From assembly GCA_018242255.1 (NCBI GenBank), contig JAFECH010000005.1, positions 1 through 39,029 on the forward strand: DNA of 39,029 nt. The letters are read 5' to 3'. The notes under the pieces were generated by a model. It made no database searches, had not been told where the DNA came from, and saw only the letters and a list, made by a program, of their open reading frames with translations. How positions within the stretch are numbered: position 1 is the stretch's first letter; every line of letters starts with the position of its first letter. This stretch comes from Pseudomonadota bacterium. GTDB taxonomy: Bacteria; Pseudomonadota; Alphaproteobacteria; Rhizobiales; Hyphomicrobiaceae. A program made the translations under genes and the position numbers. This document shows positions 5,871 to 10,124 of this stretch, piece after piece.

Positions 5871-6213
5871 CGTAGCTGCGGGATGAAGCCTGCGTTTTAG
5901 CGATTTTTTGGCCGAGGCCAAGTGCCTTAATGAGTTTTTCTGCGAATTTAGCCGTGGTTTTTCCGCACCCCCGTCCCCAAACCCTACTGTTTCGGCAACT
6001 TTGCCCTATGACGCCCCGCGAAATTTGCCCCCGTGGGGATAAAAACGCTAACGCGACAGTCTTGGATCAAGGAAGGCCCGAGGACGTCGCCTGATTTCGC
6101 CGGCACAGGCAATTTTCCCGGCACTTCGCAGGCAAATCGCCGTTGTCACCCCAGCTCCACACCTAGTTTATGCCGTGACAAATCTGCTCGCATAGAAGAC
6201 GAGGTGATAAGAA
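5871..6213. other. Intergenic region between rpmJ and the secreted cupin gene
   Basis: This divergent spacer must hold promoters for rpmJ (minus) and for the cupin gene (plus). No clear paired -35/-10 elements, palindrome or small open frame with coding character was found. A GAGGTG ribosome site for the cupin gene lies at 6201-6206. Confidence 0.4.
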
Positions 6214-7016: not shown

Positions 7017-7090
7017 GGTGGGCACTAGAGGGATCGAACCTCTGACCCCTACCATGTCAAGGTAGTGCTCTACCGCTGAGCTAAGTGCCC
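7016..7090 (-). tRNA. tRNA-Val (anticodon GAC)
   Basis: The minus strand reads a complete cloverleaf: acceptor arm GGGCACT pairing with AGTGCCC, D-arm with AGCTCAGCGGTAGAGC, anticodon stem CTACC/GGTAG around loop TTGACAT (anticodon GAC), variable loop, and T-arm AGAGG-TTCGATC-CCTCT. The CCA end is encoded (7016-7018). GAC reads the valine codons GUC and GUU. A good promoter lies directly upstream. Confidence 0.96.
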
Positions 7091-7846: not shown

Positions 7847-8746
7847 ATGCCCGACGATAGATCCCACGATGTGCCCAGCGCATTTTTCCCGTCCTACGAT
7901 GTCCTGTCGCCTCGGACCCAGGGCGTGCCTTTCGTATTCTCGTCGCCGCATTCCGGCCGATTGTATCCGCCCGAATTTCTAGCCATTTCACGGCTCGACC
8001 CGAAGACTTTGCGCCGCTCCGAAGATTGCTTTGTCGACAAGCTTTTCCGCCCCGTGGCGAGCCTTGGCGCACCGCTCATAAGTGCACGCTTTCCGCGCGC
8101 CTATCTCGATCTCAATCGGGAGCCCTATGAGCTCGATCCGGAGCTGGTGTTCGAACCGCTGCCAGCTCACGCCAATACTCAGTCGATTCGTGTCGCCGGC
8201 GGACTCGGTACTGTCGCCCGCATCGTGGCTGATGGCGAGGAGATCTATCCTTCAAGGCTGAGCCTCGAAAGTGTGTTGGCGCGAGTCGAGCAGCTTTATT
8301 TTCCGTTCCACGCTGAGCTTTCCCGTCTCGTCACGCAGACGCGCGAGAACTTCGGCTATGCCGTTCTGATTGATTGTCATTCGATGCCGTCGACGGCGAT
8401 GGCGCCCGGCGGCGCCCAGCGTCCCGACATCGTCATCGGCGATCGCTTTGGCGCATCTGCAGATCCGCGCCTCACGCTACTCATTCGCGACGAGTTCCAG
8501 CGGCGCGGCTTCAAGGTGCAGCTGAACCGCCCCTATGCAGGCGGCTACATCACCGAGCACCATGGCCGGCCGGGACGAGGCACGCATGCTATTCAGCTCG
8601 AAATCAACCGCGGGCTCTATATCAATGAGCTGACGTTCCAGGAGAACTCAGGCTATCAGCGCTTGTCGGAAGTTCTGATTGATATCGTATCGACGCTGTT
8701 CCGCGAGGTGCCGGGCATTCTCGACTACCGCGCCGCGGCTGAATAA
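7847..8746 (+). CDS. N-formylglutamate amidohydrolase family protein
   Basis: A 299-residue member of the N-formylglutamate amidohydrolase family, zinc enzymes that split N-formyl-L-glutamate (or related N-acyl amino acids) in histidine breakdown. Visible landmarks are FSSPHSGRLYP (about 31-41), RSEDCFVDKL (57-66), LIDCHSMPS, ITEHHGRPGRGTHAIQLEIN and RGLY, which include the His/Glu ligands of the metal site. There are no neighbouring hut genes, so the true substrate may differ. The ATG at 7847 has no clear Shine-Dalgarno, but conserved sequence begins soon after it. The gene lies next to cpdR in divergent orientation, and the tandem small RNA genes follow it. Confidence 0.87.
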   Translation: MPDDRSHDVPSAFFPSYDVLSPRTQGVPFVFSSPHSGRLYPPEFLAISRLDPKTLRRSEDCFVDKLFRPVASLGAPLISARFPRAYLDLNREPYELDPELVFEPLPAHANTQSIRVAGGLGTVARIVADGEEIYPSRLSLESVLARVEQLYFPFHAELSRLVTQTRENFGYAVLIDCHSMPSTAMAPGGAQRPDIVIGDRFGASADPRLTLLIRDEFQRRGFKVQLNRPYAGGYITEHHGRPGRGTHAIQLEINRGLYINELTFQENSGYQRLSEVLIDIVSTLFREVPGILDYRAAAE

Positions 8747-8786
8747 AAACCGCGCCAGATGCCGGCCAGCTATCGCCGGATTCACC

Positions 8787-8880
8787 ATAGAAAAAGGGCC
8801 GTCCGAATTCCACGAACGGCCCAAGTCTAGGGAGGAAACGCCCAAGGAGGGCTGCGAAGCGCGAGCGGAGCTCACATATC
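8787..8880 (-). ncRNA. Putative anti-SD small RNA, copy 1 of 2
   Basis: The minus strand carries, in order, a GCCC/GGGC stem (8840-8852), an unpaired run GTTTCCTCCCTAGACTT complementary to ribosome-binding sites, and a strong intrinsic terminator. The terminator is a 10-bp stem (8796-8805 with 8813-8822, one G-U) followed by TTTTT at 8791-8795. The segment 8813-8845 is identical, base for base, to 9043-9075 in the second copy, exactly 230 bases away. The terminator stems match while their loops differ, the pattern of a structured RNA under selection. Tandem trans-acting small RNAs with CCUCCC-type motifs are known in Rhizobiales (the AbcR/alpha-r15 group) and in Rhodobacter (CcsR); similarity to these is of architecture only. 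The 5' end is not determined and is set here by eye. Confidence 0.62.
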
Positions 8881-9016
8881 GCACTGCAAAAATTAAAGGT
8901 GCAGCGCATCACCAGCAAATGCGTTTTCCGCAAATCTGGTTATCAAAAAGCGCAGGACTGAAATTCAGGCATTTCAAGCTACTAGGCTTGGCGCAACCGC
9001 TGCGAGCAGCGAAATC

Positions 9017-9110
9017 CCCAATAAAGAAAGGCCGTCCGATGCCGAACGGCCCAAGTCTAGGGAGGAAACGCCCAAATTGGGCAGCGAAAGCGGTGAAGCG
9101 TGTCATCGCG
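9017..9110 (-). ncRNA. Putative anti-SD small RNA, copy 2 of 2
   Basis: This is the second copy of the tandem pair. It has the same order as copy 1: CGCTTTCGC, a GCCCA/TGGGC stem (9070-9082) with a different loop, the invariant GTTTCCTCCCTAGACTT stretch, and a 9-bp terminator stem (9030-9038 with 9043-9051) with a four-base loop followed by TTTCTTTAT. Transcription is toward copy 1, so the two may be separate units, each with its own terminator. Upstream sequence shows only weak resemblance between the copies and I cannot place a promoter. The opposite orientation is disfavoured because both T-runs lie on the minus-strand 3' side. Confidence 0.6.
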
Positions 9111-9311
9111 CTCGCAATTGTCACGATGAGCCGGTTCGGGGCGCATCGCAATCTAAACGCGTATTGCACTAGCACATTAAAAGGTAGCTGTATCCAGCTC
9201 GCCACAACTTACGTTACTAATATGTATCTAGTTCAACCTTGCTCTATAACGCGGTGGCGAGTGGCGCTATGACAGCCGCTAATCAAACAATTGAAATGCC
9301 AGGGTGAGTGC
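9111..9311. other. Intergenic region between the small RNA genes and hisN
   Basis: This is the remaining part of the 565-base gap after the amidohydrolase gene. It should contain the promoters for small RNA copy 2 (minus) and hisN (plus). A small hairpin AGCTG-TATC-CAGCT lies at 9186-9199 and a CTCTATAAC stretch at about 9242-9250. Nothing firmer can be called. Confidence 0.35.
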
Positions 9312-10124
9312 GTGGCGGAACGTGTGCCGGCTAACGAATTTCAGGCAATCGTCGGCGTCGCGCAGGAACTGGCCGATATTTCCGGCTCCGTTATCCTCAA
9401 GCATTTCCGCAAGCCTATGCCTGTGGAAAACAAGGCCGCCGGCGGGGCATTCGATCCCGTAACCAAGGCCGACAGGGGCGCAGAGAAAGCGATCGTCCAG
9501 GCTCTCTCCACTCGATTCCCGGATCACGGCATCGTCGGCGAAGAGTTTGGCACGCGCCCTGGAACAAGCTCGTACAAATGGGTCATCGACCCGATTGACG
9601 GCACTCGCGCCTTCATCATGGGCTCCCCGCTATGGGGCACACTGATCGGCGTCATGAAGGACAACGAACCAATCTTCGGCTTGGTGGATCAACCCTTTAC
9701 CGGCGAACGATTCTGGTCTGGCGACAAGGCGGCCTACCACAGCCTGCGCGGCGGCCGTCCGGCCCGCATCAAAACGCGCGAATGCACCAAGATCGAAGAC
9801 GCGATTCTGACCTCGACGCATCCCGACCTGTTCGAGACCCCGGAGCAGTCGGCGGCGCTCGCGGCGCTTAAATCGAAAGCCCGCCTCACCCGTTACGGCG
9901 GCGACTGCTACGGCTACTGCCTGCTCGCGTCCGGCTTCGTCGATGTGATCATCGAATCGGGACTGAAGCCCTACGATATCGTCGCCATCATTCCGGTCAT
10001 CCAGCGTGCGGGCGGCGTGATCACCACATGGACCGGCGGCGATCCATCATCCGGTGGCGACATCATCGCGACCGGCGATCCGCGTCTCCACGAAGACGTT
10101 CTCGCCCTGATCAACAAGATCTAG
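9312..10124 (+). CDS. hisN: Histidinol-phosphatase, inositol monophosphatase family
   Basis: A 270-residue inositol-monophosphatase-fold protein. The metal and phosphate motifs are complete: DPVTKADRGAE, GEEFG, the signature WVIDPIDGTRAFIMG with both Asp ligands, and YGGDCYGYCLLASG followed by GLKPYDIVAIIPVIQRAGG. The internal wording is that of the HisN subgroup, which removes phosphate from histidinol phosphate in histidine synthesis, rather than of SuhB or CysQ. The GTG at 9312 is chosen because AGGG lies 7 bases upstream; a TTG at 9291 in the same frame has no ribosome site. It converges on the hydrolase gene with only two bases between the stop codons. Substrate choice within this superfamily is moderately sure. 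Confidence 0.85.
   Translation: MAERVPANEFQAIVGVAQELADISGSVILKHFRKPMPVENKAAGGAFDPVTKADRGAEKAIVQALSTRFPDHGIVGEEFGTRPGTSSYKWVIDPIDGTRAFIMGSPLWGTLIGVMKDNEPIFGLVDQPFTGERFWSGDKAAYHSLRGGRPARIKTRECTKIEDAILTSTHPDLFETPEQSAALAALKSKARLTRYGGDCYGYCLLASGFVDVIIESGLKPYDIVAIIPVIQRAGGVITTWTGGDPSSGGDIIATGDPRLHEDVLALINKI

Follow-up and report, generated by a model that had tools for sequence, protein, structure and literature searches.

Predicted tandem alpha-r8 small RNA genes with different upstream regions, and alpha-r8 elements in viral contigs

A pair of minus-strand RNA units beside an amidohydrolase gene

The window (the whole stretch of 39,029 bases that was analyzed) contains two short units on the minus strand. 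They lie between an N-formylglutamate amidohydrolase (FGase) gene (7847 to 8746, plus strand; PF05013, 259.3 bits) and a divergent neighbor, a hisN/suhB-like gene of the inositol monophosphatase family (9291 to 10124, plus strand; PF00459, 176.4 bits; start codon taken as the mechanical ORF start). The units share 33 identical bases (8813 to 8845 and 9043 to 9075, minus strand) at a spacing of 230 bases, and this minus-strand repeat contains TTTCCTCCC. At the end of each unit, a G+C-rich stem leads into a T-rich run (approximately 8795 to 8791 and 9029 to 9020, minus strand). The terminator stems are alike while their loops differ in sequence and length, in the window as well as in 22 genus genomes. 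An earlier note on this DNA, made from the letters alone, had described the same shared stretch and spacing, as well as stems that were kept while loops diverged, and the window sequence and the genus genomes bear out these descriptions.

We compared the window with 4,227 Rfam families using cmscan. RF00519 (suhB, MmgR, or alpha-r8; gathering score, 41 bits) matches the minus strand twice, at 8782 to 8859 (64.2 bits; E value of 3.8e-11 for the whole window) and at 9015 to 9089 (60.1 bits; E value of 4.4e-10). Here, we will refer to the former as copy B and the latter as copy A. RF00519 is the only one of the 4,227 families to pass its cutoff at these coordinates, and the only other match over cutoff in the window is a tRNA (7019 to 7090). 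Copy B (8782 to 8859) has a hairpin 1 with the loop UCCUU, the core UUUCCUCCCU, and a terminator; copy A (9015 to 9089) has the loop AAUUU, the same core, and a terminator. These matches support the proposal of the earlier note that two small RNA genes stand here in tandem, with terminator-like 3' ends and an anti-Shine-Dalgarno core left exposed, and the covariance search answers its question of whether the family is known or new: it is the known family alpha-r8/MmgR.

Alpha-r8 RNAs are described in all Alphaproteobacteria except Rickettsiales; most species have a single gene for them, next to that for FGase, and in many genera several occur, some of them adjoining one another (PMC12559287). 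Since that source describes all three, the family, the neighborhood, and the adjacency of the window pair are already published. Its section 7 gives as hallmarks a 10-nt single-stranded core, UUUCCUCCCU, preceded by a weak hairpin, together with a Rho-independent terminator. In both copies the core follows a predicted weak hairpin and precedes a predicted terminator, and the FGase gene adjoins the pair, as is usual for alpha-r8. For lateral transfer of alpha-r8, the same source cites a 2016 phylogeny (Lagares, Roux and Valverde, Mol Phylogenet Evol 99:182-193).

Two characterized systems offer comparisons within the family. MmgR of Sinorhizobium meliloti is Hfq dependent, repressed by PhaR, activated by NtrC, and lowers PhaP1 and PhaP2 (PMC8401924, PMC12542648, PMC7143759). 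It is a transcript of about 77 nt and also lowers polyhydroxybutyrate. According to PMC12559287, a direct pairing partner had yet to be found for MmgR, the best-studied member of the family. It shares with the window the RF00519 model, the core, the terminator, and a PhaR-type box upstream (in the window, before copy B). MmgR, however, is the sole alpha-r8 RNA of S. meliloti (PMC12559287), whereas the window has two, one of them without conserved boxes, and both window copies differ from MmgR in an extra covarying 5' hairpin. SisA to SisD of Caulobacter crescentus resemble the window in that several siblings per genome have a common core; SisA adjoins the FGase gene, and the upstream regions of the siblings are unrelated (PMC12559287, section 7). 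The Caulobacter siblings are scattered, in contrast to the adjacent copies of the window. Whether alpha-r8 siblings act redundantly or separately is left open in PMC12559287.

The earlier note had likened the pair to AbcR (alpha-r15), a tandem that would control transporter mRNAs. AbcR1 and AbcR2 of S. meliloti, like the window units, form a tandem of small RNA genes whose anti-Shine-Dalgarno motifs are CU rich, and the partial homology of alpha-r15 members to RF00519 explains the resemblance (PMC7143759). The AbcR model RF02345 (cutoff, 40 bits), however, has no match at the pair up to an E value of 1, where RF00519 passes twice, and its sole match in the genome scores 18 bits (E value of 0.599) on a different contig. 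The neighbors of the pair also differ from the SMc01226-lsrB setting given for AbcR in PMC7143759. We consider an AbcR tandem extremely improbable and abandon this assignment for alpha-r8, though the window RNAs may have targets in common with AbcR.

SorY (18.4 and 17.4 bits against a cutoff of 111) and all other Rfam families listed at the pair up to an E value of 5 score far below cutoff. No CcsR-named family is among the matches listed up to that E value, and Rfam may hold no CcsR model. Elsewhere in the genome, a candidate third alpha-r8 copy (C255, 522 to 596; RF00519, 36.5 bits, below cutoff) is better matched by BjrC1505 (RF02356; L004, 447 to 588, on the same contig; 54.7 bits against a cutoff of 50), which leaves two alpha-r8 genes over cutoff in the genome (404 contigs, 97.11% complete).

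Fixed subtypes and their upstream regions

RF00519 matches 55 of 60 relatives, 50 of them over cutoff; in G029, a member of the family outside the genus, no RF00519 match was found. For comparison of the locus, 40 stretches were retrieved from relatives. All 22 genus genomes (the window counted) have two cores at this locus, 197 to 466 bases apart, with the order A then B fixed. Among 13 stretches from other members of the family, eight have two cores, three have three, and two have one. Two copies over cutoff within 1 kb occur in 3 of the 24 genomes from other families of the order (G052, G057, and G059). The exact two-core pattern was found in 23 stretches of the named genome collection, 12 from Hyphomicrobium and single ones from Methylocella, Tistrella, Devosia, and others. 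The pair is present in Hyphomicrobium facile DSM 1565.

The two copies are distinct subtypes throughout the genus. Hairpin 1 of the downstream copy B is GCCC-UCCUU-GGGC in 22/22 genomes, while in the upstream copy A the loop differs and is usually AAUUU (subtype also kept in 22/22). The core between the hairpins is identical in all 44 copies. This fixation of two subtypes goes beyond the published adjacency and explains the like stems and unlike loops that were visible in the window; it also agrees with the earlier view that the duplication is not recent. By its sequence, the UCCUU loop of copy B is a second stretch that could pair with Shine-Dalgarno sequences. Copy B looks like the older form; the single-core stretches (G026, G032, G046, and G047) are of core type B. 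G052 has one non-B core in the core comparison, though the RF00519 search lists two copies there.

The earlier note had further taken the kept stems and differing loops as a mark of selected RNA structure. We ran RNAalifold on 22 orthologs per copy, and this part of the claim fared less well: hairpin 1 and the terminator stem give scarcely any covariation, as within the genus each either stays constant or varies on one side alone. Compensated pairs lie instead in an additional 5' hairpin beyond the units that had been described. In copy B, this hairpin is upstream of the Rfam model (8860 to 8876, minus strand) and has three compensated pairs, the surrounding helix included; in copy A, it spans the 5' end of the Rfam match and continues upstream (9084 to 9115, minus strand), with four such pairs. 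The hairpin may extend the RNA or be a promoter dyad at the DNA level.

A further difference between the copies lies upstream. PhaR (AniA) of S. meliloti has a motif with the center YGCRNYGCR and is reported to bind the mmgR promoter efficiently (PMC12542648). Two boxes matching this center precede copy B in the window, TGCAGTGCG (8880 to 8888, minus strand) and TGCGCTGCA (8900 to 8908, minus strand). In 22/22 genus genomes, two such boxes are found within 140 bases upstream of copy B at near-constant positions, mostly 19 to 20 bases apart, compared with any box at all before copy A in 4/22. Over all 76 copies, at least one box precedes 37/38 of B type and 8/38 of A type, against 3.7% of shuffled stretches; boxes of this type are common in themselves, with 29 places in the 39-kb window. 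The genome of the window encodes PhaR (PF07879) and has four phasin-family matches (PF09361), and a box precedes both the best phasin gene (108 bases from the adopted start) and phaR (48 bases from the adopted start). Copy A has conserved upstream blocks of its own (GATTGCG, CCGAAGCAG, and AAGTTGT.GCG, within 9100 to 9250), which match no motif tried.

Taken together, we hold with considerable confidence that the pair consists of two paralogous, tandem minus-strand alpha-r8 (RF00519) genes, which would encode Hfq-linked anti-Shine-Dalgarno repressors with control probably divided between the copies. Family membership, the CU-rich core UUUCCUCCCU, the terminator-like ends, the A-then-B order, and the differing upstream regions can be read from the DNA itself. 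Copies A and B would be separate transcripts that work with Hfq, and the core would cover the Shine-Dalgarno sequences of target mRNAs and so lower their translation. From the upstream sequences, we infer that copy B is under PhaR and copy A is not; PhaR would repress copy B via its two boxes. Copy B is likely the counterpart of S. meliloti mmgR, with the polyhydroxybutyrate (PHB)-sensing PhaR as its repressor. The core is predicted to pair with the four phasin starts no better than with shuffled stretches.

One possibility is simple redundancy, in which the duplicates would be retained for dosage and controlled alike. Their seeds are indeed identical, as the 33-base shared stretch includes the whole core. 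Redundancy of this kind nevertheless seems rather unlikely given the box pair before B in every genus genome and the scarcity of any box before A, and given that the hairpin 1 loops are fixed per subtype within the genus. Another is that just one copy is expressed, or that the units are transcription terminators rather than genes. This would fit their intergenic position and terminator-like hairpin ends, but neither unit shares a strand with either flanking gene, and terminators need no such core as the one that is identical in all 44 genus copies; we regard it as very unlikely. Under divided control, the pair probably brings one kind of seed under two different signals, because copy A is without a conserved box. 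The pair is a known kind of small RNA, with a clean split between a copy with PhaR-type boxes and a copy without. Its differing promoters make the question of redundant or separate siblings testable in a genus where the pair is fixed.

Alpha-r8 elements in phages, prophages, and viral contigs

A blastn search of 50,697 phage records returned three matches (OP596613, OP596612, and PP395640). The first two are Bradyrhizobium prophages, in which the element (L223, 6008 to 6088, in OP596613; L224, approximately 6001 to 6090, in OP596612) lies in an unannotated gap flanked by a NusG-like gene and by HNH endonuclease, terminase, portal, and capsid genes. Their NusG-like proteins, deposited as "ABC transporter substrate-binding protein" and "hypothetical protein," are 34.9% identical to each other. 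The PP395640.1 element (L225, 5994 to 6077) is at the end of the late region. RF00519 is over cutoff in OP596613 and PP395640 (62.8 bits each) and below it in OP596612. PP395640.1 was deposited with Microcystis as host yet has an alpha-r8 RNA over cutoff; this host label may be wrong, because alpha-r8 is described from alphaproteobacteria.

Additional copies were found in relatives and on plasmids. G019, of the same genus as the window, has a third alpha-r8 copy (L272, 3440 to 3512; G019:C1, 476239 to 476311; 46.4 bits) that precedes a prophage's O-like replication gene. The prophage also has a NusG-like gene (+2597), and no large terminase subunit (TerL) was detected by profiles in 19.9 kb on that side. 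Six other extra copies in relatives have neither a NusG-like gene nor TerL within approximately 3 kb. In addition, a blastn search with copy B hit 37 plasmid records (e.g., NZ_CP066357.1 and NZ_LR743512.1); among the 20 listed, no annotated feature lies under the match. One match is near a parA gene.

The exact 18-base alpha-r8 core is present in at least 120 IMG/VR viral contigs, a collection whose contigs can include host DNA, and the reversed core has none. We examined 80 of these loci (L058 to L137), which form 54 groups by flank similarity. On the 50 whole viral records among them, RF00519 matches 50/50 at an E value of 1e-3 or better and 41/50 over cutoff. In a PHROG scan of 121 ORFs downstream of the RNA, the terminase large subunit leads among families with a named function, followed by ParB-like protein, HNH endonuclease, and terminase small subunit. 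Other contexts include head or connector genes (L059 and L062), a tail sheath gene (L095), and a RecE-like gene (L069).

Upstream of the RNA, phrog_6386, "transcription antiterminator," leads with 13 matches among 126 ORFs. When ten chosen upstream proteins were tested singly, eight matched phrog_6386, and the Pfam NusG domain was over cutoff in five, below it in three, and absent in two. As a marker of phage antiterminators, phrog_6386 had to be set aside: it also finds NusG in 11/14 control genomes and in 179/199 genomes of the order. Because this family is not specific, we term the upstream protein NusG-like only. An iterated profile searched against all ORFs finds a NusG-like gene in 22/80 loci and in two of the three named phages. 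In every case, the gene shares the strand of the RNA, and its end is 99 to 437 bases ahead of the core; in 58/80 loci, some of them short, none was found upstream.

Five terminase profiles searched against all ORFs of the 80 loci identify TerL in 31, and in 27 of the 31 it starts 26 to 1,869 bases after the core on the same strand, a placement that the profiles favor, as their seeds were mostly same-strand downstream genes (27/30 candidates). In the near-identical L078 and L116, in L120, and in L128, TerL is elsewhere or on the opposite strand. These profiles detected no TerL in 49/80 loci, 28 of which have at least 2.5 kb downstream. The order NusG-like gene, RNA, TerL is seen by both profiles in 19/80 loci and also in OP596613 and OP596612. 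TerL is downstream in 19 of the 22 loci with a NusG-like gene; the other three (L099, L101, and L107) hold 1.1 kb or less on that side.

In a reverse search, the NusG-like protein was the query. It yielded 15 loci, of which 12 have the core (three edits or fewer) downstream on the same strand, nine at 170 to 301 nt and the others at 928, 1,217, and 2,898 nt; the core was not found within these limits in L262, L265, and L266. Four of these 15 loci had already been in the first set of contigs; among the 11 new ones the core is present in eight, including L258 to L260, which are near-identical there. Across 24 phage copies selected for a CATAGG-type 5' block, the 5' hairpin has four compensated pairs, and a CATAGG-like block and a putative terminator are seen in the sequences of phage copies. 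The terminator loops of L077, L081, L101, and L131 contain CCTCC, a further possible anti-Shine-Dalgarno stretch.

A candidate late-leader RNA

In Stx phages, the stretch from PR' to tR' is transcribed and terminated in the lysogen, which gives the trans-acting small RNA StxS (PMC7873438). Phage alpha-r8 shares with StxS and other lambda-type late-leader RNAs a predicted RNA and terminator between an antiterminator or antiterminator-like gene and the late genes. The systems differ in that the upstream protein is NusG-like rather than Q, and in that the RNA, unlike the lambda 6S type, belongs to a host small RNA family; among the ten proteins tested, the NusG domain was found in place of a Q-type protein, although below cutoff in three and absent in two. 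By its position, which is seen for part of the set, phage alpha-r8 appears often to hold the place of such leader RNAs.

By analogy, we give about even chances to the reading that tailed phages and prophages of alphaproteobacteria broadly carry alpha-r8, commonly as the attenuator in a late-operon leader behind a NusG-like antiterminator gene, and as a trans-acting small RNA in the lysogen. The RNA would be a late-leader RNA whose terminator the NusG-like protein would override. In the lysogen, the terminated RNA would act like the alpha-r8 of the host, joining or disturbing its regulon. The host tandem would be the other side, a pair of alpha-r8 genes that share a seed but of which PhaR would control just one.

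Judged by titles and the beginnings of abstracts, and with subscription papers mostly outside the search, we found no earlier report of phage-borne alpha-r8. Exchange of regulatory RNA between phage and host has been seen mainly in lambdoid phages of enterobacteria. Of our findings, the pair itself is of a known kind, and the phage form is the part worth following; the two Bradyrhizobium prophages, ppBeUSDA76-1 and ppBdUSDA122-1, have public sequences that would permit a direct test of the phage reading. If phages do use a host small RNA family as a late-operon leader, phage-host exchange of regulatory RNA would extend to the alphaproteobacteria as well.
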